A stretch of 64,000 nucleotides of DNA from assembly GCF_026151205.1 (NCBI RefSeq), contig NC_087073.1:20612837-20676836 (forward strand), in the 5' to 3' direction. The notes below the pieces were generated by a model. It was not told where the DNA came from. It searched no databases and saw nothing but the letters and a program-made list of their open reading frames with translations. A program made the position numbers and the translations under genes. The stretch comes from Bolinopsis microptera (Eukaryota; Ctenophora; Tentaculata; Lobata; Bolinopsidae). Positions within the stretch are counted from its first letter, which is position 1; the number at the start of each line of letters is the position of its first letter. Of this stretch, positions 37,201 to 58,200 are shown piece by piece.

Positions 37201-40200
37201 AACATTCATTTATTTTGTTATGTACAGTGAAGATTCACACCCAATCCTCCAGACTGGCTCGTCACACTCATCACTTACTGTCTGTTTTCACGAATCTAAG
37301 CATTAACCATGTCTGACGGAATTAATGACTTCACACAATAACATGATTTAACACCACTAACAATTCTCTCTCTCTCTCCAGGAATTGTGCTGGTAGCAGT
37401 TAACCCTTACTGCGATGTGCAACTTTACGGTAACGAGATGATATGGGCCTACAAGGGCCAACAGATCGGGCAGCTAGATCCTCATATCTACGCTATCAGT
37501 GAGGACGCATACAGTGAGATGAAAACGTTAGTTTTATTTTAGATTTATCAGTATTGCGTGGACTGTCCTCAAAAGTTCATGTTTTCATTAATGATTTTGT
37601 TATCTATTGGAAACTTTTATTGCTATTCGGAAATCCTGTGATTTTCACAAAATTTAAATTTGTGAAACATCTCGAGCAAGCCAAAGTGTGACACGATACG
37701 CAACATTTTCACTGTGAACTGTTTCTACTTTCTAGCATATCCGGAAAATCTGTTATTTGAGTCTGACATCCTGACACAATTAACCGCGGGTTGGACTGAT
37801 GTCCAACTCTCCTGGGAATATCACTTACATATCAGTTACACACGCCGCTCTGTCTGAGTGTCTGATGTCTGAAAATCCCTTCCTCCTCCTCTGCTTTACT
37901 TTTATGGGATAATCCAGGACTGATTTACCTGAAATTAACCTAATACTGATTCAAACAATTACGTGGAGGCTAATTAAACCCGGCCAGTGTACGAGAGTTC
38001 CGCCCTACAAATTTTAGTTCTACATATAATTAACCTCGTTAGTCGCCGCGAGCCTACTTAGTCCGCAAATGGGTAAATACACACAGTTAAGTGTATTTAC
38101 CATCCTCCTTTCAGAGATACGTTGAGACCAAAATTGGCTGAGAAGCGTGTGTATGCTAAGCTTTCATAGGCTACATGTGGAAAACTTGCGGTTATTGGGG
38201 AAATGAACAAAGTTCGAACAATTTCCGAGAAAACTGGTAGAGCAATGAAATCGTGATGAATATGGAAATGTAGCGTATCTTGTAATGGTAACCTGCAGAG
38301 TGCAGAGGATCCTGCAAAATACTGATAACGAATATAGAGTCATCGAATACTCCGTTCCTGATAGCGTAAAGGACAAACCAGTAGAATATCCAATCTAGCA
38401 TGTTAAAAGAACACAATTTCTAGAAAAATATTATCTCAACATATAACCCCACTGAACTGATTTAATAATTAAATAATTACCCACTAATTAAATAATTACC
38501 CACTAATTACAGGATGGGACGGAACCAGAGTATTATAGTGTCCGGAGAGAGTGGAGCAGGTAAAACTGTGAGTGCTAAGTACGCAATGAGATACTTTGCT
38601 ACAGTGGCTGGTAACGAGAAGGAGACTGCTATTGAAAGGAGGATATTATCTACTAATCCTATTATGGAGGTTACAACTTTGTTTTTATTAATTTACCAAC
38701 TATCAAGATCGATCGTTACTTTTGGTCGTATAATATGTGATTGTCTAAGATAATCACAAATCTCTGAATATCTAATCTTCATATTCGACAAAGTTTTTCT
38801 TTTTATCATTTTTTCAAGGAGGATCTAACACTGGCTCCCACCAATAAATCAAATCATCCCACATGGCCACATTCAGAAAGTTTAAAATTTCCTCCAAGTA
38901 CCTTTTTTGGTGCCCCTTACAACATCTGGCCGTAACATCTAATATTGCATGTTAACCTGCAACTATTTGCAAGAATGAAGCAATCATTTTATGGGTTTCG
39001 GACGGTTCTTGATTAGTTCTAAAGTTCTAATATCGTCACCTACAAATAGAAAGGGCCTATGTCGACATAGGCCCCTTTAAAAAGATATACCAGCGCGAAT
39101 ATCTGTGGAACCATACCTACCATATCCCAAAATATTAAGTCGATTGGGTGAAAATTCAAAATCTCGACTTTTTAAAGTAGGGCCTATATTAACATGGACC
39201 TTTTTCAATAAACTGAGCGGCTACTAATTTAGATAGATTAAAAAGGCACATGTCGACATATGCCCTTATAAATTGTTGAAACGTGATGTTCTTAAAACGT
39301 AGAAAGGGCCTAAGTCAACATATGCCCTTTTAAATAGGTCAAAACCCTGCTTTGTAATAGCAGAGTTAGGGCCTATGTAAAGAAACCTAGCCAGTGAAAG
39401 TGCCAGTCAACCGACCGAACTTTGCACTAACCAATTAAAGCGACATTAAAAACTGTTTGAAACATGTGATCCGGTATTATTTCAGTGATATCGACACGCT
39501 GTAATTATTTCGCGCAATAATTAAGTTCCAGAAGGCCATGGAAGAGTCTTAAGCCGCGCGACACGTTATCATCCATTTCATTTTATGCACGTAATTGTTG
39601 AGTTGTTGTTTTGTGATACGTTATGCGATTTCTGTTGCAACTTGAATCTATTATTATACCAACCCGATTTCTCTGCTTGTTCAGTTTAAATCGCCAGGTG
39701 AACGTGATTGAACACGTGAGTTTTGTCCGTCGTATTATAGCAATCTGTAATAATTGTAATCCTGTGATAAGAATTTTGGCTCTGATCAAGTATAACTTAA
39801 CTGCCTACGCCGGGACAGGGACAGCGAAACGTCAAAGAGGTGCAACTGAAGATGTGCCCGACAATTATTTATCTAGGTCGTTTTGTTTAATTTCTAACGT
39901 AAAATAAGAACATCACAAAATACAACCTTTTTAATTGCCTCCCTTAGACCGAATAGTCATGTCATCAGCAAAACGGAATACCTAGTCTGAATCAATATAT
40001 TGCTAGTAAATAACCCGTATTTTGTGTCATATTATAGCGAAATGTTTAATCCTTAATTCCTTTCTGTTGTGAATTTCTGTTCTGAACCAGAATAAATTAC
40101 CTGTCATGACAGTGTATATACTAAAGCAGTTATTCAATCACGTATCGTGATACAACTGTCCAGTATCCGCTCTGATCCAGAATAACTTACCTGTCATGAC

Positions 40201-43200
40201 AGTCTATAACAGTTATTCAATCACGCGCTACGATTAAATGAGCTTTCGGTTTCATTTTGTGCAGGGTATAAACTTCTGTCTCAACGTATTATACTGTTAA
40301 CTGTTAGCTGTGCTCTCTGTGGGGCATGAAATATCGATTTTGTTCTAACGCCACTTTACCTTTCGATGTAGATTCAAAAGCGGCTGCACATTGTCACATT
40401 GCTGGTTTATTGACTAACATTTCTTAGCTTGGTACTTTCTTTTAGTATATTTTCTCAGTATAATTTTTGAAATAACGAGATGTGTGTTATAAGGAAATAA
40501 TACATGCAATACTAAATACATTACCATCCATTTAGCTAGATGACTCATTCTGTAAAGCTTCGAAAGAGGAAGGGCCGGGGCGGTACGTTATCAGTAGAGG
40601 TTAGTTTTTCACGACTTGTATAATAATAATTATATAACTAGAATCATAGTAGTTGCATAGTTCTATTTAATAATTATTTTATTACTGCACCTGCAGCTAT
40701 GAGGTAGATAGAGGTAATAAGAGAGAGGTCAGCTTTTTAACGTTAGGCAGATCGTCAGATCGTCAGATCGTCTTTATCTCAGTATTGATATTTCCCAGGA
40801 TACAATGTGGTGTCCTGGGTTGCAGGTTCTTGCAAACCCCTTTCAAGACAAGTTATACTACAAGGCTACCATTGTAAAAAGAGTGAGGGTAAGCTGCTTT
40901 ACTTTTATAATTATTGCAAACATATCAATTTTTGCTAGTTTTGAGATTCTTTTTTAGGATCAGCGAGCCTAACTTAGACTAGTTGGCACAGATTGTTTAA
41001 AATCATAAACATTTCTCACTAATTTCAGGAAGGCGTCTTCAGTCTACAGTTCGAGTCTGAAAATAAGTCCCGCAATGTTTCTGCGAAATTCATGAAGCTT
41101 CTTATACTTGGAGTGGGTAAGTGTAAATTTAAAATGACACTAATACATTTTATGCCCCGTCTGATGTTGAATATGTGGTAAAATAACTAGTATAGCGGTA
41201 TACCGTCACCTCTTCCACATGTAACTGTTAATTATTACTTTGACGCAATGATTCAGATTAGACTCAGATAGCTGTTAGTAATGGTATACTCAATACTTAT
41301 CATGATATGAAGTCTAATCTGAATTAAACTGTCAAATTTTTATGTTATACATTGAATTTATCGAATAATTCCTTCAGACGATGCAGAGGAAACTGTCGTA
41401 GCAGCTGGATCTGAGGACACTGTCGTAGCAGCTGGATCTGAGGACACTGTCGTAGCAGCTGGATCTGAGGACACTGTCGTAGCAGCTGGATCTGAGGACA
41501 CTGTCGTAGCAGCTGGATCTGAGGACACTGTCGTAGCAGCTGGATCTGAGGACATGGTCGTAGCAGCTGTATCTGAGGACACTGTCGTAGCAGCTGGATC
41601 TGAGGACACTGTCGTAGCAGCTGGATCTGAGGACACTGTCGTAGCAGCTGGATCTGAGGACACTGTCGTAGCAGCTGGATCTGAGGACATGGTCGTAGCC
41701 GCTGGATCTGAGGACATGGTCGTAGCAGCTGGATCTGAGGACATGGTCGTAGCAGCTGGATCTGAGGACACTGTCGTAGCAGCTGGATCTGAGGACACTG
41801 TCGTAGCAGCTGGATCTGAGGACATGGTCGTAGCAGCTGGATCTGAGGACACTGTCGTAGCAGCTGGATCTGAGGACATGGTCGTAGCAGCTGGATCTGA
41901 GGACACTGTCGTAGCAGCTGGATCTGAGGACACTGTCGTAGCAGCTGGATCTGAGGACATGGTCGTAGCAGCTGGATCTGAGGACACTGTCGTAGCAGCT
42001 GGATCTGAGGACATGGTCGTAGCAGCTGGATCTGAGGACATGGTCGTAGCAGCTGGATCTGAGGACACTGTCGTAGCAGCTGGATCTGAGGACATGGTCG
42101 TAGCAGCTGGATCTGAGGACACTGTCGTAGCAGCTGGATCTGAGGACATGGTCGTAGCAGCTGGATCTGAGGACATGGTCGTAGCAGCTGGATCTGAGGA
42201 CACTGTCGTAGCAGCTGGATCTGAGGACATGGTCGTAGCAGCTGGATCTGAGGACACTGTCGTAGCAGCTGGATCTGAGGACATGGTCGTAGCAGCTGGA
42301 TCTGAGGACATGGTCGTAGCAGCTGGATCTGAGGACATGGTCGTAGCAGCTGGATCTGAGGACACTGACTCGGCTATGTATAAACTCCTATACAAATCGA
42401 AAATGTTGATGAAAGCACAGCTGATATCAAGAAAGCAGGGAGAGCCTGTACATGGACATCCACTAAAAAAGGGCCATGGAAAGTTTTTGATCAAACTAGT
42501 TCACCTAAGAGAAGCATTTAAAAGCTGGACTGCGTATGATGAGGACAAACATGTATCAGGGAGTTATATTGCATGGCCAATGAATAGTGCTGTTAAAATA
42601 GCAAATTGGGGGCAAAGACCGCCTAAGGTAACTAATACGGATAGACAAGACACTCGAAACTATGATGTTGAGGTGAATGTGTTTTGGAGCGAGTTGCAGA
42701 TCGCACGAGGCAGAGTTGAAAATGAAATCCGAAACTCTGAGTTCTACACTAACGTTTTTATCTCGCATATATACCCAGAAAACGTGGACATGAAAACATA
42801 GAGCAGCTTCAATGTTTAAAAGTGGACAACACAATTTCATGGCCATCGAAAGAACTTGAACTAAGAATGGATGGGATACCACGGAAATCACGAAAGAGAA
42901 AAAGTGATTCAGTGAAGATGAAGCGTGACGCTAATCGGCAAAAGAAACGAATGAAAATGAAAAGCAAAGAAATAAAAACATGCAGTTGTGTAGCCAAATG
43001 TTATGAAAAGATAGATCAAGAGTTACAAATACGCCTCAGGGAATATCATTATGAACTATCAGAGAATACAGCAGCCGGCGATAACTTCTTATCGAAATAT
43101 ATAAGTAGAAGAACAAAGAAGTTGCATAGAATAGCAGCTGGTGACAAGCGGAAGTTCACCTTGATATATAAACTCCCAACAACATCTGAACTTCCAACAA

Positions 43201-46200
43201 CATCGGAAGATAACACAGCTGTGGTGTGTAAGGTGATGTTCTTAGAAACATTCGGCATCACTGCCAAAAAATCAAGAATCATAGTTTTTAAAAAATATGA
43301 TAGAAACAGTTCTCTTTCCCACGGATTGGTTGGGAAACCCTCCAATCGCGGGACGGTTCCTGCAGTATTGAGAGCGGCAATTGAAGATCACCTGAATACC
43401 TTGCCAACTGTACCTTCACATTACCGAAGAATGTACTCTCATAAGAGGTATTTCGAGGCATCGCTAACGCTAGCCAAGCTGTTTAAACTGTTTAAAGAAA
43501 AGCATCCTGGCGTGAAAATAGGTCTAACTAGCTACAGTAACATACTTAATTCATTGAACATTGGTTTTTATAAACCTAAGAATGATCAATGCGACCAGTG
43601 TACTTCCTACAAGAATAGCTCGAAAGAAGAAATTGATCTACTACTGTACATCGAACACATTGAGAGGAAAGACATGTGTAGAAATTGTAAGGATGCTGAC
43701 AAAATCAAGGCAAAGGCATGCGACAATTTCGGAGCCTACACCATCGATATGGAAGCTGTAAATTCGTGTCCAAAGGCCGCGTCAGGTGAGTTTTACTATA
43801 TCACCAAGCTTGCTTGTTATAACTTATCATGTTATAACCTTGGGACTGATGAGAAGACTTGCTTCATGTGGGATCAGACACAAGCAAACCGTGGTCCAGA
43901 TGAAATCGGATCGTGTCTCCTATACATTCTGAGAAATCTGCCTGAGAACATTACGGATGTCGTCATTTGGGCAGATTCATGCGGTGGTCAAAACCGCAAT
44001 AAGGAAAATGCAGCAGCAATACTGCACTTCCTTAATGTGGAAGTATCCAACACAGCGCTCCATGTGAAGACTGTGCACCTGAAGTACTTTGAACGTGGAC
44101 ATAACGAATCTGAAGTTGATACCATACATCACATGATAGAAGCAAGTAAGAAGAACCAAGAAATATATTTACCGGACCGGTATAAGGAGATAGCAAGATC
44201 TGCCAGCACAAAAAACCCTATAAAGGTTTTTTCACTGGCATCATATGAGTATCCAGTATATGACGTCCACGCCCTTTGCAAGTCCACCATCATTAACCGC
44301 AATCGATACCGGTTTATTGATCATGAGGGCAAACCGAAGGTTAACGAAGCGTCATGGCTAAGTGCAAAGCGGCTCTCGTTTGCAAAAGGCAGTCGGGCAA
44401 TGACTATCAGCACATTACCCGACCCGGAGAGAACAGATGATGATAAAGTCATTCTCACCGACAGAAAGGTAGGTTGTGTCATTTAGTTATGTATGGTTAT
44501 TATGGCGCGTGATAATATATCAATGAACTTTTTACAAAGCTATACTCGCACTAATGATCATGACATCTTGGCAGTACCTGTACATTTATTCTATTGCAGG
44601 TATACGTAAGCAGCCGTGCTTCAGTAAGATCGGAGGTGGTGGATAAACCTCAACTCACAATCCTCTGCGACGATTCGACAGAGATACCTGTTTCCGAGAG
44701 GGTTATGCTTGGTCTTATTGATCTATGTGAGAAGAGGCTGATACCACAGGGGTATCATGCATTCTACAAGAGTATCACTACTATAGAAAGTGACAAGAGC
44801 GATACTGACTAAAACACATTCCATATTTCTACATTTGCAGCATTTTTATTTTACTATTTTCAATTTCATGGGACAATTATTTTATGCAATATTCATCTTA
44901 GGATGAATGTAGACACAAATTACACTTATTGAAATATTATACACCTTTTAAATTATTGGAATATTAATACAATTTAATTCTATTCATCTATTTATACTAA
45001 TAATGGGATTTAAATAAATCGTGTTCACTGGTTATTGAAAATACAGCAACCTGTTATGAAATCAATAATGTGGCAAACTGAAATTAAACATAGACCATTT
45101 AAACCCATTACGGATGCATAAAATGCCTACTTCAAACGATATTAATCTACATGAGCCTCTATTCCAAGTGTTTGTCAGGAATAAACTTGAAAAGTTAAAA
45201 GGACTTATGTACACATAAGCCCTGTACCGATTCTCACATGTAAGATATTTCAATCAATTAAAAGGGCCTATGTATTGAATATTTTTTTAAAAGGGCCTAT
45301 GTCAAACTTAAATCAATTATACCAATTAGTCAAAAAGAGCCAAGAACATTTTTATATTGTAGAACAGTCAATCTTTCCATTTAAGATGCATAGAAATCAA
45401 ATTCAAATGCTTATCCTAGATCAAATTTCGAGAAATCGGTTTTTATGCATTATCTCAAAACAACTTTTTTTGACATAGGCCCTTTCTATATATAGGTGAC
45501 GATATGTTCAATATTTACCAACCTGACTACTCGCCAGCATAACCTGCCACTACTACCCTAAACTATAAGATTATCCAACGTTTTAGGCTAATCACGCTAG
45601 CAGTCTAATCATAGATTATCCCTCTGATTTTATAGAAGCAACGATCGACCAGGTTGTTGGTATGTCATTTGAACCGTTTAGCTATGACGAGGTGCCGGCC
45701 GGCATCAACAAATCATCCTGACATTAAGAGAGAGTGACGCAAGGCATACACCCGGTCTAACCCCCCATTTTTGGGATAAACCGTCCCACATTGCTGCAGA
45801 TAACGGTCATAGATCAGACAAGGCTGGTCGGTCGGAGGTCGGTCGGAGGTCGGTCGGGCGCCGGTCGGCGGTAGGTGAACGCCGGTCGGAGGTCGGTCGG
45901 AGGTTGGTCGGAGGTTGGTCGGAGGTTGGTCGGAGGTCGATCGGGCGCCGGTCGGGCCTCCGACCGACCTCCGACCGACCTCCGACCGACCTCCGACCGG
46001 CGCCCAACCGACCTCCGACCGGCGCCCGAACGACCTCCGACCGGCGCCCGAACGACCTCCGAAAAACTTGACTTAGAAAATTTTCGGTCAGACTCATTCT
46101 CGATACGTACCTTCTGTATCGAGAGCTCCCGCTTCCGAGCTCGTGTTGCAAAGGGGAGGCCTGCCTTCCGAGATCACATTACCAGGGGGAGCCTCGAGTC

Positions 46201-49200
46201 CAAAATTGTCTCATAGAATGGTCGCCCGACCTACCTCCAACCGACCTCCGACCGACCTCCGACCGGCGCCCGACCGACCTCCGACCGGCGCCCGACCGAC
46301 CTCCGACCGACCTCCGACCGACCTCCGACCGACCTCCGACCGACCTCCAACCGACCTCCGACCGACCTCCGACCGACCTCCGACCGACCTCCGACCGGCG
46401 CCCGACCGACCTCCGACCGACCTCCGACCGACCTCCGACCGACCTCCGACCGACCTCCGACCGACCTCCGACCGACCTCCGACCGACCTCCGATCGACCT
46501 CCGACCGGCGCTCGACCGGCGCCCGACCGGCGCCCGATCGACCTCCGACCAACCTCCGACCAACCTCCGACCAACCTCCGACCGACCTCCGACCGGCGTT
46601 CACCTACCGCCGACCGGCGCCCGACCGACCTCCGACCGACCTCCGACCGACCTCCGACCGACCAGCCTTGTCTGATCTATGACCCAGATAACACTTACTG
46701 TGCCGTAAAAAGCTGTAAAATTAGAACCTCCGATAAGGCGAAATTGTTAGACTAATTAATTAGTCATAGTAAGAGGTGCTTGTAAAATAGAGTTGTGGGA
46801 TTGTTACGGAAATTGATCCTGTAAATTTGATTACGTACGCCTAACTTCAGAAGTTAGTAACTTCTAATTATTTTCAGGCGTTAGGCAATGCTAAGACCAT
46901 TAGGAACGATAATTCCTCGAGATTTGGAAAGTACGTGGAACTTGAGTTTGACAAGCAGACCAATATATCTGGAGCTCACATCTGTACTTATCTTTTGGAG
47001 AAAAGCAGGGTTGTTTTTCAGGTTGGTTCATCATCTTTTCCATTATTTCAAATCTAATACTTAAATTCATTTTTAAAAATAACATTGAAATATGTTCATT
47101 TTGAACACGCCATAATATATATTTCTCAAGTTGACCCAGCCTTGCACCTGTGGTTGCAAAATAGTTCAAACATCAAATTAAGCAACCCTCGTGATCATAA
47201 TCCACATTCCACATACAAATATACGTTACATAGTAATATGTAGCCACTGGGCAATGAACCGCTTGAGCGGCGAATATGCAATCTAATAAAATGTGACAAC
47301 CAGTAACTCAGTTAATGGATCACTAAATAATCTAATATATCTGAACTGGTTGTGGTTGTTCAGTTTCACAAAATAATATTCTCATATTCTACTGAATATT
47401 AACCACCCACTTGTCTCCACACATTAGCCCTCCCATTTATCCAGTGCTTCATTTATACGGGTTTGCGAATTAAGTGGGTGAGTCAGTGAGTGGGCGTGGG
47501 GTGCCATATGTTTTGGTTATTTTCTGAAAATTACAATACAATCAGTGTTAAACCCATAATTTTCATTTAACCATAACTCCGCTTCCGAAACACCGATTTA
47601 CAAAATTCAAAGAAAATTCTGAACTTTTCTTGGAAGGTAGAAATTATGTAAAATCTGGATTGGAGTATTGTTTATGACTTTATGAGTCGCATTGTTGTAA
47701 TGTATTCTGTGTAAAATTATCTTTATCCCGGTTACTGCGACAAGTAAAAATGCTCTTATTAGGAAAAGGATTTTACTCGACGTTTCAATGTAACTACATC
47801 GTATTCATGATCTCAAATTATTCGTTATATAGTAGTGTTGAAAGTATTGAAAGTATTAGAAATTATGGTCATTAGTGCTTCAAGACAGACTGAGTAGTAG
47901 CATGTGACGAATTTTGCTAAACTTTTAAATGATCATGAAGTTGAATTCAAAAGTAACATTTCATGCTTGGTCACCTTCCAAAGTTAACGCACACTTCATT
48001 GATTCTGAATGTTAATAATGTATATCCTCATATTTCACATTTCATTGGACATGAATGAAAACAATGTACAAAATGTGTACATTATACATGTCTACAATCT
48101 ACATTTGCCACAACCTACATCAGTCGCCGAGTCGCCACCGTAAGCAAACTATGTAAGGTATACAGTGTAAGGTATACAGTGTTTAATGCTATGTTTAACC
48201 AATAGCTGGATGTGTACTCATAAAGAACCCCTTATTCTTTACAGTACATTTCACTGTCCTTAGCTCCCGCCAATTTTACCACCGTCACCTGTATAACATC
48301 TCCTAACAATGATAATCTCCATATTATTCACGTGTGTGTTTGGAGGTAGATTAGAGGTGGAGTTTAGTAAACTGACGGTGTGTATTGTACAATCCTTAGA
48401 GATGAGTTAACATTTGGGCGTGTGAGGTTAAATAAGCTACTTATAAGATCTGCACACGATATAATGAGTTAATAACCAATTCTAAATCTCCCTTTCGTCA
48501 ATCGTATGTGATGAATCATCACTGATGATCAATGTACAAATTGATTTCAGAGTAAGAAGATTGTTCCAACCATATTGTAACCCAAGTAACCACATTTCAG
48601 ACAGGACAGTAGCCATGTCGACTATGTAATATAGACATTACAACATTTTTTTGATCGGTCACATACTTCCTAAACTGTCTGTTACAATGCTTATATTTTC
48701 AGGCAAATAACGAGCGAAACTACCACATATTCTACCAGCTGTGTGCTGTACGAGATATCCCTGAAATGAAACACCTACATCTCAGTACGTCATTAACTAT
48801 ACTAAATCTAGTTCCTTTTAATGTATACAACCCTGTGGTTTCCTTGAATACGACAATGTGAATAATTCCACTGAGTCGGCGGACCGATTCTCAGAATTCA
48901 CAGACCGGCTTTTTTCCCTTCAGAACATCCCGATGAGTTCAGATTCACAAGTCAGGGTAAAGCCCCTGTGATAGATAATATGGACGACAGTGAAACATTC
49001 TACGAGATGAGTGAGGGACTGTTTAACCTCGGAATAACAGAGGAACAGCAGCTTTTCTTATTTAGTGTCCTCGCTGCTGTACTGCACATGGGCGATATTC
49101 AATTCAATGAAGAGAGAAATGACAGTTGCTCAATAAGCGTAAGTACTATGTGTTCTAAATGAGCTTTCGATGCAAGCCTCATCCATTTTACACTGCTATG

Positions 49201-52200: not shown

Positions 52201-55200
52201 GTTTGTACCAACACGAGTTGTACAGCAGCTACGAGCCTGTGGTGTTATAGAAACAGTCCGTATCTCCGCTGCTGGATACCCCTCTCGGTGGAGCTACAAG
52301 GAGTTTGAGTCCAGGTATAGTCTCCTGGTCCACTCTCGGAGGGTACGCAAGGGGGAGACTATGGATAATTGTAGGGTTGTCATCAGCTCCATTGTCAGTG
52401 ACAAGGACAAGTATCAGTTCGGAAAGACTAAGATTTTCTTCAGAGCCGGTCAAGTGGCGTACTTTGAGAAGCTCAGGTCAGAGAGGCTGTTCAGTGCGTG
52501 TGTCATGGTGCAGGCCCGAGTGCGGGGCTGGCTGGCTGCCAAACGGTACAATTCAGTCAGAGTAGCCACTATCGCAGTGCAGTGTATGGTGAGGAGAACC
52601 CTGGCCAGAAGGAAGGTACAGAAAATGAGAGAAAACAGAGCAAGTATTGTGATACAGAAACATGTCCGAGGCTGGGTACAGAGGATTAAATACAGGAGAC
52701 TCCTCGTGTCTATCCTCTTCATACAGTCTGCTCATCGTGCTCAAGTCGCTTATAAGAACTTCCTCACTGTTAAATATGAACACAATGCTAAAATTATTCA
52801 GGTTTGTTTAAGTTCACGACATCAATTATTTTCTAAATATTTTAAACCCATTTAAGAATTGAAAAACTTGAGTTAAGATTATAAATCTGAATTTCTCATT
52901 TCTTTGAATATGTAAGATATTCTTTGATGACGGATTAATCCAGAAACACGTGCGTGGATGGTTGGCACGCTGCGCGTACAAACAGCACATGCGGAAGATT
53001 ATCCAGATCCAGAGCTGTGTCAGACGGCACCTTGCCAAGAAGAAACTCAAAGCACTCAAGGTCGGTGTATGCTAAATTTACAAATTTAGAATGATAAAAA
53101 TAAAAATACTTGAAAATATTATGGTCTTAAAAACTTTTAAGTCGTTAGTTCTTACTCCTTAACAACTTAATTGTAGCTTGATGATGTACAGAGCGAGCTA
53201 GATTCACCTTCGGACACACAAACAGACTCACAAACAAACAGATTTCCTACTTCATACAATGACAAACTTGACGGTCACATAAAAGTTTTTAAAGACAAAC
53301 AAATACTGTTGTCCCAAATATCGCAAAGTAGTCTTGGGTCAGATTCAGATTACAGTTCAGAAACATTATCACGCCCGAGCACATGTGATCAAATTGTTCA
53401 GACAGACATGGATTTGCTTTTACCCTTTCTGCATGGATCAAGTGTATGTCTTGTCCTAAAATCGGAGGCCTATAGATGTGGATACTGGTGGGGAGGTGAA
53501 ACACATTTGTTTACTTTAATAGTAAGCACATGTTCAGCGGGTTGAGGAGGTGAAACACATTTGTTTACATTTTTAGGGTAAGCACATGTTCAGCGGGTTG
53601 AAGAGATGATACACATTTTGTATTATGGAAGGCTTGTAACACTTGTAACGCTTTCTTGTTACCCCCCTTTGAAGGCCCCGAATTATTTTCTGAACGAAAG
53701 CTCAAAAATAACCGAGAAATCGACCTTCTTATTAACTCATTTTGATGACTGTTTCTGACCTAAAATTGCACGAAAAATCGATTTAGCTAGGTTTCAGAAC
53801 CTATAAACACTTCCTTATCCCTCAAAATTGATGTTTTATAGTTGATACGAGCAACAAGCAACATATGTTTTGATCCTTCGGTTCTACTCATGACCTAGGC
53901 AGTTAAGCTGAACCCGACAGATCGAGGCAATCCTCACCTTAACTGATCAAACTGGTACTAACACAATTTTCAGATATAAATGTTCTTTGCGATATGTTTA
54001 TTGCAGCTTTGCAACTTGAGTGAAGACCAGAGTACGAAAACACACAGCAGGTAAGCAACTCACTTTTGGTGACTGTTCCTCACGAACATTCTGATCCTGT
54101 AACAATTTAGTATACGGTAGCTTAGAAGTGAAACCCACTTATTGTAGTACCAACTATGGTCATACGAGACTAAGGAATAATATACATAAATAAGTTACAT
54201 AATAAATTACCATATATAACAAACATATCGAACAGGTACTATCACAATTTCCAGAGCAGGTACTACTACTATCACAATTTCCAGAGCGTAATTTTCACAA
54301 TTTCCAGAGCATAACAAAGTCAAAAGAAACACAACGAAGGTAGGTTACCAACACCACAATATAACAATTATACTAACAACTGAATTAAATTTATTCTGAC
54401 GACGGGCAGCCCTGATGTGCTCCGTCATCCTCAACGAGCGACCACTAATTGTAATAGAGGTGTTATGTCATGTGACACCGATCCGTCCAATCACAAACAG
54501 GACGAGTCAGCAGATCGATATCGTGTGTTTACTTTCCTTATCTTTATTTGACCCTCTGTTCACATTGTTATCTCTACCACATCTCGGCTCGGCAAGGTCC
54601 ACGTGCAATATCTGCACCGCGGTAAACACGCCATGATTACGTCATAAACTTGAAATAGTGTGATTGTTGTACTTATATAACCGTGCCCATTGCCCACGTA
54701 CAATACAAACTGTTGGGGGGGGGGGGGGGGGGATTGTAGGAACTTATCGTCCAGTCATGAACAGAATATTAACATAATTTTCTAGTTATTTAAGCAGACC
54801 TGGTCATTTTTAAAAAAATCACTGTCCACTTCCCTCAAAAAAACAGGGTTCAAATTAACAAGTTGGGCACACACGAATGCGATGTTGCTCAGATAAGGCA
54901 ACATCTTCGCCACAACTTTGTTTCCCAAAATCTTGTACCGCTTCAGATAGCCAATTGAGCGTTCCACGTGGATGCGGGCGATGCTGACTTTTCTGCTGGC
55001 TGCTACTTCTTCCGGCGTGAACTGAGTCTTGCCCCACATCCCCGCTGGGATGTTTAGTGTAACTCCTGAAATTTAATTCGCTTTTTATGCCGCTTATTCT
55101 TAACTAACCGGACGTTGATTCATCACTCTACACTTAATAGCGTACAGCAAAGCTCTAACCCATGATCCGAAACCACTGAACCATTTCAACAGCGCACCTA

Positions 55201-58200
55201 TTACCTGTTATCTATTTTATCAATACTTGAACTTCCGTGTTATCTCATCTAAAATAAACACCCCGCACACAAAATGAATTCCATTGACTTTGAGGGCAAG
55301 TGCTGCATTTAAAATTACACAAACTCTTATTACAATTGTGAAAAGGATTCCAAGTTTACATATTTAAAACGGCAATGACTAATTACACAGCACAAATTGA
55401 AATTTTGAGTGTCTAACCTGGTAAAAATGAACTGCACCATGGTGAACTAGTACTTCAACTCTGTCAGGTATAACCATGCTTGGCCTCCCGTATACTGCCT
55501 CCTCCTGGAACATACAGTTCTTGTCAGTGAAGTCGTGTCCTAGATTCTGTTTTTAAACACTTACTGTCAAAGTTAAACAAAGCAGCACTCATGGATATAT
55601 GCATTATTCCTTTGCTTCCAGTTGGTGTAAACTTAAAGCACAGTTCATCATTTGGATCTCACTCAGTTCACAATCGCGACCTCATATTAGAGTAAATGTT
55701 TTTAATAATACGCAATTGGACAACTAAACCGAAACATGCTATAACTAAACAATCCTTCCTGATTGAACAGTTTTTTTTTTTTTTTTTTTTTTTTAGTAAA
55801 ACAAAATTTAAATTTTATTGCCATTACAATGAATAATGATATCATAATAAATATAAGTAGACATCCGATAATAAACTTGTTACATCCAGTACAACCCAAG
55901 ATGTCAGCCGACGCGACTTACAAAAATAAAGAAAGCTAGCATGTTATGTTCATTGTTCATAGTTTTTCTAACGAGCATGCTTAGCACTTAGGCTGTACGG
56001 AAATAGCTTTAATTCTACGTCATATTAAAAACTTTACACCATTTTTTGAGATACAAAAATAAATTTTAAAATAAATAACTCTTTTGCTGCTTAGGCGCGG
56101 CACCGCGCTTGACCCACATGCTATACAGTGTGTAGCAACACATCGCTGAAAACAGAAGCTGAATGAGCTATAACAGTTAGCATCATATCACAGTCAGTTG
56201 GAGGAGCGACCAACACACTATCAAGATCGGTTGTTTATCTTAACCCCCCCCCCTCCAACAGTTTGTATTGTACGTGGGCAATGGGCACGGTTATATAAGT
56301 ACAACAATCACACTATTTCAAGTTCATGACGTAATCATGGCGTGTTTACCGCGGTGCAGATATTGCACGCTGACCTTGCCGAGCCGAGATGTGGTAGAGA
56401 TAACAATGTGAACAGAGGGTCAAATAAAGATAAGGAAAGTAAACACACGATATCGATCTGCTGACTCGTCCTGTTTGTGATTGGACGGATCGGTGTCACA
56501 TGACATAACACCTCTATTACAAGTGGTCGCTCGTTGAGGATGACGGAGCATATCAGGGCTGCCCGTCGTCAGAATAAATTTAATTCAGTTGTTAGTATAA
56601 TTGTTATATTGTGGTGTTGGTAACCTACCTTCGTTGTGTTTCTTTTGACTTTGTTATCATGCTGTGCCCTGGAAATTGTGATAGTACCTGTCCGATTTGT
56701 TAAGGAGACGATCTCCCAGCTCCCTAGCTGTTCATATGTTGCAGGATCAGAATGTTTGTGAGGAACAGTCACCAAAAGTGAGTTGCTTACCTGCTGTGTG
56801 TTTTCTTACTCTGGTCTTCACTCAAGTTGCAAAGCTGCAATAAACGTATCGCAAAGAACATTTATATCTGAAAATTGTGTTAGTACCAGTTTGATCAGTT
56901 AAGGTGAGGATTGCCTCGATCTGTCGGGTTCAGCTTAACTGCCTAGGTCATGAGTAGAACCGAAGGATCAAAACATATGTTGCTTGTTGCTCGTATCAAC
57001 TATAAAACATCAATTTTGAGGGATAAGGAAGTGTTTATAGGTTCTGAAACCTAGCTAAATCGATTTTTCGTGCAATTTTAGGTCAGAAACAGTCATCAAA
57101 ATGAGTTAATAAGAAGGTCGATTTCTCGGTTATTTTTGAGCTTTCGTTCAGAAAATAATTCGAGGCCTTCAAAGGGGGGTAACAAGAAAGCGTTACAAGT
57201 GTTACAAGCCTTCCATAATACAAAATGTGTATCATCTCTTCAACCCGCTGAACATGTGCTTACCCTAAAAATGTAAACAAATGTGTTTCACCTCCTCAAC
57301 CCGCTGAACATGTGCTTACTATTAAAGTAAACAAATGTGTTTCACCTCCCCACCAGTATCCACATCTATAGCTATGCTACTTAAAACTTCGGCTCAAAAC
57401 TCAAACATTGAAAAGAACTTTTAGAATTCTAACATCATTCTCAAACTGTTATTCTTTCCACTTTCCAGGTTGAAGCGAGATCAATTGGGCACTTCAAGAA
57501 ACTCAACGTCAAACTGGAAAAGAGGATATTTGAAATGCAGGTAAATCTGGTGCTGGTTAACCAGGCTTTTAACATTAAATTGTCGCTTCTCATATTAAAA
57601 TCACGCCAAGATCAGATTATGATTAACTAATTCCCAGACTGTTACCAAGGTAACCACACCAGAGAAGGTTAGCGAGAGTTTCCCTTTATTTCTTTAACTG
57701 ACCCAGTTTATCAAGCATACCTCCTTATAAGTACCTTTCCGTGGCACTCCTTTATAACATTTCCTCGCCGTCTTATTTGTCTAGTTTCAACATCTGTTGT
57801 CTTGACACAGAACGGCCCTGGCCCGTTGCCATCCTCTTCAAGATTTAGATACCACCACCTTTTGTTAACTTTTAAACAGCTGTTTTCTTGAAACTCTATC
57901 GTAAAACTATCACCTCTACTCGGTGATATTCACATCTCACATGCTCTAACTTGAAGATGGCTAACAGTTCCACATTATAGTTCCACATGGAGCGTGAACA
58001 CTGAACAGGTGGTGTCACTAACTACTACTAGTCTACCAGTGATCAGTTACCAGATTTACTTACTTGTCACCCATACAGTGCAGGTTTCAATGTTTCGTAA
58101 CTTAAAGGGCACTCTAGTTTCAGTGTTTCTCAACTTTGAGGGTACATCATTTACACCATTTGTTTGTAGTTTACCTTAAATATTATACTGGATTTGTTAA

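Follow-up and report, generated by a model that had tools for sequence, protein, structure and literature searches.

Is the DNA that interrupts a class V myosin gene of the ctenophore Bolinopsis microptera a transposon with a gene of its own, and what kind of transposase would that gene encode? The locus lies in a stretch of 64,000 nucleotides of contig NC_087073.1 (positions 20,612,837 to 20,676,836), referred to here as the window. An intron of the myosin V gene is occupied by a mobile DNA element that carries a spliced gene of its own. This element is probably a recently moved terminal-inverted-repeat (TIR) transposon of Sola-like, DUF7869-related type, with a modular transposase in which a Tudor-like domain, a tandem array and a catalytic core follow one another.

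The first-pass annotation of the window, made from the letters alone, placed inverted ends at 39,028 and 45,505. Inverted arms of 34 nt with 94% identity are present at 39030-39063 and 45472-45505, and these include 4-bp ATAT flanks. Because the outer ATAT of the arms is the target duplication according to other copies, the element proper is 39034-45501, which is 6,468 bp long with 30-bp terminal inverted repeats. The palindrome-rich subterminal regions of the same annotation are recovered as a cluster of the motif AAAGGGCCTATGT in both orientations. This motif has 12 matches in the window (two or fewer mismatches, both orientations), every one of them in one or other of the element's end regions, against an expectation of 1.52, and no shuffle out of 100 gave as many. 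The interrupted gene encodes a class V myosin, as the annotation had proposed. The element is on the myosin strand, in the intron between two adjacent motor exons. These flanking exons match contiguous positions of the Myosin_head profile (83-136 and 136-168) and their best solved-structure matches are myosin Va and Vc. The boundaries are as follows.

39030..39033, no strand: left target-site duplication ATAT (from sequence, the flanks of other copies and the empty-site repeat)
39034..39063, + strand: left terminal inverted repeat CGTCACCTACAAATAGAAAGGGCCTATGTC, 30 bp; the C5 copy has the same end
39034..39380, no strand: left subterminal region with direct and inverted AAAGGGCCTATGT copies, candidate transposase-binding sites
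45198..45501, no strand: right subterminal region with more AAAGGGCCTATGT copies
45472..45501, - strand: right terminal inverted repeat, 30 bp
45502..45505, no strand: right target-site duplication ATAT
38499..38678, + strand: motor exon of myosin V that carries the P-loop and precedes the host intron
46869..46973, + strand: the following motor exon of myosin V, downstream of the element

The structure of the gene within the element is that of a single gene, as read from open frames and splice signals. Five exons are present with GT-AG at all four introns.

40540..40599, + strand: exon 1, basic N-terminus of 20 residues; GT donor, phase 0
40799..40888, + strand: exon 2, first half of the Tudor-like domain (frame, splice signals, profile match)
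41029..41116, + strand: exon 3, second half of the Tudor-like domain; phase-1 donor
41378..44468, + strand: exon 4, repeat array and transposase core; frameshifted at 42785 in the window copy
41386..42367, + strand: tandem array, 27-nt unit, 36 units of VVAAGSED[T/M]
42785..42786, + strand: point at which 25 nt present in the C5 copy are missing (frameshift)
42753..44486, + strand: transposase-core open frame, 577 codons, DUF7869-related, with D-D-D triad
44600..44812, + strand: exon 5, C-terminus ending ...SDTD stop (splice signals)

In a second full copy on C5, the same five exons form one open frame of 1,260 residues that unites the Tudor-like segment, the array and the transposase-like core, as originally predicted. 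The array and core of this copy share a single open frame of 1,123 codons. The predicted number of five exons is retained; the separate repeat and core exons of the prediction are not. Basic N-termini are also found in three other families. The exon 5 assignment is supported by its peptide, which by eye resembles the end of the L063 frame in a relative. The 25-nt deletion at 42785 breaks the spliced frame of the window copy, which stops at codon 554 of 1,180. The window copy is, from its sequence, probably not the source of an active protein.

Evidence for movement comes from a search of the whole assembly (264.65 Mb, 232 contigs), in which all copy counts are lower bounds. At least three near-identical copies of the core are present: the window copy, the copy at C5:5512295-5518986, whose two ends coincide with those of the window copy, and, on C152, a 3' part starting at window position 42786 with one mismatch in 2,720. 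Leaving the array aside, three substitutions and two indels (17 and 25 nt) separate the window copy from the C5 copy, and this near-identity indicates recent movement. Nine shorter two-ended copies (377-775 bp) are spread over chromosomes, and one-ended copies are found besides. The start of the C152 copy (L005:783) is within one base of the 25-nt deletion point of the window copy (42786). Directly beside the C152 copy (L005 4387-8946) are gag-like and pol-like frames that, by eye, apparently belong to a Gypsy-type retroelement.

The sequences next to the termini identify the target site. Among 34 source sequences scanned there are 48 pattern matches. Thirteen without subterminal sequence were dropped by eye and 35 were kept as genuine, including one from the relative L063. 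Not every one of these 35 counts as independent, as most copies contribute two and two on C7 look like one duplicated event. ATAT adjoins 22 of these 35 termini and makes up 1.0% of window tetramers. The remaining 13 adjoin ATGT (3), ACAT (3), AATT (2), ATTT (2), ATAC (1), TTTT (1) and CTAT (1). Among the two-ended copies, ATAT is on both sides in 6 of 11. The other five have unlike flanks, for example TTTT/AAAT at C1:7442624, and these are not congruent with a simple 4-bp duplication.

Empty sites are available for comparison. The copies at C12 and C4:10695434 sit in opposite orientations inside another repeat, with the structure TCGTTCAC-ATAT-element-ATAT-TACGTAAT. The uninterrupted form of this host repeat has 969 and 950 occurrences (two or fewer mismatches; positions listed for 100 places), versus 1 and 0 for the reversed control pattern. 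The empty site contains one ATAT and the filled site two, and this indicates a 4-bp target duplication. A second family, with a core 20-21% identical, is inserted on C6 in a 33-bp satellite. ATAT flanks the insertion on either side, and the 17-mer GGAAC-ATAT-ACCCGACC occurs 77 times around it. A repeat containing TCGTTCACATATTACGTAAT, with approximately 1,900 copies (for example at C1:4290138), has been entered by the window family in both orientations.

The core has a conserved D-D-D triad across relatives, in agreement with the DDE/D-like core of the first reading. Numbered on the L004 core, D471, D547 and D595 are conserved in 9/10, 9/9 and 8/8 covering rows, with spacings of 76 and 48 residues. 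At D471 the sole departure comes from a fragment too short to cover the motif. The second Asp lies in the motif W[AC]D...QN, and E602 is present in only 5 of 8 covering rows. On this conservation the three Asp qualify as a candidate catalytic triad. Two Cys clusters had also been proposed. Cys 218 and 222 are each present in 7/7 covered rows and Cys 422 in 10/10 (Cys 419 in 6/10), while the CRNC cluster, with 3 and 1 of 10 rows, is not conserved. The ratio of nonsynonymous to synonymous change (dN/dS) between copies of two relatives is 0.25 (12 and 12 changes) and 0.18 (6 and 4), which fits a protein under selection while moving.

DUF7869 (PF25273), a Pfam family described as of unknown function, had been suggested for the core. 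The relationship is supported, since the core resembles this family and the relatives L064 (34.8 bits, E=1.6e-8) and L066 (33.5 bits, E=4e-8) score above its cut-off of 26. Membership of the window core is not supported. The window core scores 20.2 bits (E=4.7e-4) and the C5 core 19.8 bits (E=6.6e-4), both below the cut-off, as are L068 (18.3) and L069 (23.6). Seven of the 15 rows of alignment A3 match DUF7869 at E<=5. By profile score, the window core is related to DUF7869 and is not a member. The name DUF7869 was not found in the open literature searched. Along with the low score of the window core, two further results weigh against the modular transposase reading. The AlphaFold2 model of the core has a mean predicted local distance difference test (pLDDT) score of 53 and yielded no transposase or RNase H structural relative, and a third pair of relatives has a dN/dS of 0.58. 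In the same low-confidence model, strands and helices near the second and third Asp follow an order compatible with an RNase H fold.

The segment in exons 2 and 3 was called Tudor-like in the first-pass annotation, and comparison with profiles supports this. A profile of four families matches the Tudor domain of 53BP1 (E=2.4e-6), SGF29 (2e-4) and TDRD3 (5e-4) in the PDB. The same profile has 56 matches at E<=1, including a few non-Tudor chains from E=0.011. A Tudor/Agenet (SH3-like) barrel is predicted for one relative, and the segment recurs in distant relatives. The profile and the predicted fold together point to a Tudor identity. Several results are not congruent with it. Foldseek with the Tudor-like model gave no match at E<=0.001, and the single Tudor-like sequences all score below Pfam cut-offs. 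Among Pfam families, the window gene matches DUF4537 best, whose function is unknown, and L063 matches S1 best.

The methyl-lysine pocket differs among families. The pocket positions of 53BP1, which we take to be Trp, Tyr, Phe, Asp and Tyr, correspond to Pro, Tyr, Phe, Ser and Asn in the window family and to Trp, Phe, Phe, Asp and His in the C10 relative. By these positions, the C10/C6 family retains four of five, with Phe for Tyr, and a pocket is plausible. The window family retains two of five (Tyr and Phe), and such a pocket is doubtful there, which also counts against a methyl-lysine reader in the window element itself.

The layout recurs in relatives down to approximately 20% core identity. 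The Tudor-like domain, array and core have the same order and orientation in four families, and two families have the same intron phase before the array. The frame is open across all junctions in the C5 copy and from the Tudor-like domain into the array in C10. Two differences do not fit a uniform layout. The window family has a phase-0 intron within the Tudor-like domain, versus phase 1 in the C10 relative, and in the C11 relative a Tudor-like segment was not recognised.

The arrays differ from family to family. A 10-residue repeat in about 32 copies had been described for the window; the unit is instead 27 nt, or nine residues (VVAAGSED[T/M]), with 36 units in the window and 44 in the C5 copy. 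Relatives' units were counted by pattern with mismatches. The L063 array contains 23 units of GGNRSEADE, and its core pieces are 45 and 53% identical to the window family. The C4 relative has 42 units of a 10-residue PSEPSISAAT type, the C10 relative 23 units of the 21-residue STVAAPLSAPPPGIDNSTEVQ, and the C11 relative five units of the 10-residue VEQEVEDVQR. Read across these sequences, the position of the array is conserved while its unit sequence and unit number turn over fast. A C6 copy of the C10 relative, otherwise approximately 98% identical, has 2 units versus 23. This argues against a precise linker length.

Other modules were observed near the core. At L063 3857-4361, an insertion containing repetitive 'LCNVYATSM'-type frames interrupts the core at the CGGQN motif itself. 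In the C13 relative L075 (36% identical), the core motif is preceded by a Myb/SANT-like segment (E=2.9e-6). The region from the array to the zinc cluster (L004 core, approximately 1-200; upstream in L064) contains, by eye, a module of about 70 residues of the form 'VHG...IAWP', in two copies in the window family and three in the C10 family. Elsewhere in the window, just downstream of the element (45826-46663), an 11-bp GGTCGGTCGGA unit forms arrays that give way to its reverse complement. A second element, fold-back-like or with long inverted repeats, is at 53470-57371, with inverted repeats of 635 nt at 99%, 2,632 nt apart, and nested inverted arms.

Each part of the modular reading has an alternative. 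Exons 1-3 could be a captured fragment of an unrelated host gene that lies outside the transposase transcript; the gene was joined from sequence alone and introns split the domain in two families. This is very improbable given the constant order and orientation in four families, the pre-array intron phase common to two, and the continuous frame over all C5 junctions and from the Tudor-like domain into the array in C10. Exons 1-3 are also identical in the two full window-family copies, and the Tudor-like domain is identical in the C4 and C1 copies of one relative. The array itself could be neutral baggage, an in-frame minisatellite that spread in an unconstrained loop and has no role. The chances of this are only slightly short of even. 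It is favoured by shifts in unit number between near-identical copies (36 versus 44, and 23 versus 2) and by the different units of different families. It does not account well for arrays of 9, 9, 10, 21 and 10 residues that lie upstream of the core in open frames in all five families examined, nor for the near absence of Lys/Arg from three of four measured arrays (12.5% in L063).

A further alternative accepts the Tudor-like barrel and gives it a different function, for example contacting DNA, dimerising or binding elsewhere on the transposase, with no reading of methylation and no chromatin guidance. This is a serious contender, although somewhat less probable than a neutral array. SH3-like barrels occur in recombinases, the window family keeps its pocket residues only in part, and residues 1-84 of the core model weakly match integrase C-terminal domains, SPT5 KOW and also Tudor. 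The best profile matches, 53BP1 and SGF29, are methyl-lysine readers, and one relative has most of the pocket; both are at odds with a non-reader. The element may finally be an ordinary Sola-type transposon whose layout is already in curated repeat libraries and merely absent from open papers. The Sola superfamily of DNA transposons was reportedly described by Bao et al. 2009. The available text of a later source gives its marks as a DDD transposase, 4-bp duplications, a size of mostly 2-9 kb and inverted repeats of 11-1124 bp (PMC10741241). The 6,468 bp, 30-bp TIRs, 4-bp duplication and D-D-D triad of the window element fit these published marks. An already catalogued layout is nevertheless unlikely, as a 2025 survey, in the text available, calls a Gypsy retrotransposon the first Tudor-bearing transposable element reported, as far as its authors know (PMC12477816).

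Under the modular reading, the core, putatively zinc-binding, would bind the subterminal AAAGGGCCTATGT motifs and palindromes, cut at the CGTCACC ends and join them at ATAT with a 4-nt stagger. Short copies would be mobilised by transposase acting in trans. Attached through the repeat tether, the basic N-terminus and the Tudor-like domain might dock the complex on chromatin or a nuclear ligand. Docking could then bias where or when insertion happens; this last step is the newest and least supported. Chromatin targeting by the Tudor-like domain is an inference. More broadly, these elements may represent an animal cut-and-paste lineage that steers itself by a Tudor-type reader on a hypervariable tether, with a new unit per family and a fast-evolving targeting arm on a conserved DDD core. 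This proposal is tentative and rather doubtful as it stands. A DNA transposon bearing a Tudor-type module makes chromatin guidance of a cut-and-paste element directly testable, its assets being an open recent copy, a natural target repeat present approximately 1,900 times and short copies that share its ends. The arrays (2 to 44 units, five different units) are a natural series for the role of a repetitive tether in a recombinase. DUF7869 gains a concrete likely role as a transposase core.

Among known systems, the Tudor domains of 53BP1, TDRD3 and PHF1 are like the Tudor-like domain of these elements in sequence profile and predicted barrel fold, but the methyl-lysine pocket of the window family is incomplete. 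Chromodomain Gypsy elements likewise fuse a chromatin-reader-type module to a recombinase, although they belong to another element class and carry another module. Targeting has been demonstrated in those elements. Integrases that carry chromatin-reader modules have been described mainly in retrotransposons (PMC12477816). The window element shares the 4-bp target duplication, D-D-D triad, short terminal inverted repeats and 2-9 kb size of Sola. The N-terminal Tudor-like domain and the array are absent from the Sola features in the available description, the comparison being by description only (PMC10741241), and from its sequence the element is best classed as Sola-like and not as a proven Sola member. 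A search for Tudor with transposase in open papers, with most subscription papers, preprints and Repbase outside its scope, found one report, the brown-algal Gypsy element. This long terminal repeat (LTR) retrotransposon, Gypsy-10_Ec32, has a C-terminal Tudor domain and is, to the survey authors' knowledge and in the text available, the first such report (PMC12477816). Both elements carry a Tudor-type domain in their own protein. Gypsy-10_Ec32 is a retrotransposon with the domain at its C-terminus, whereas the window element is a TIR DNA transposon with an N-terminal Tudor-like domain and a repeat linker. Within the open literature searched, the combination of a Tudor-type module and a repeat tether in a DNA transposon is new.

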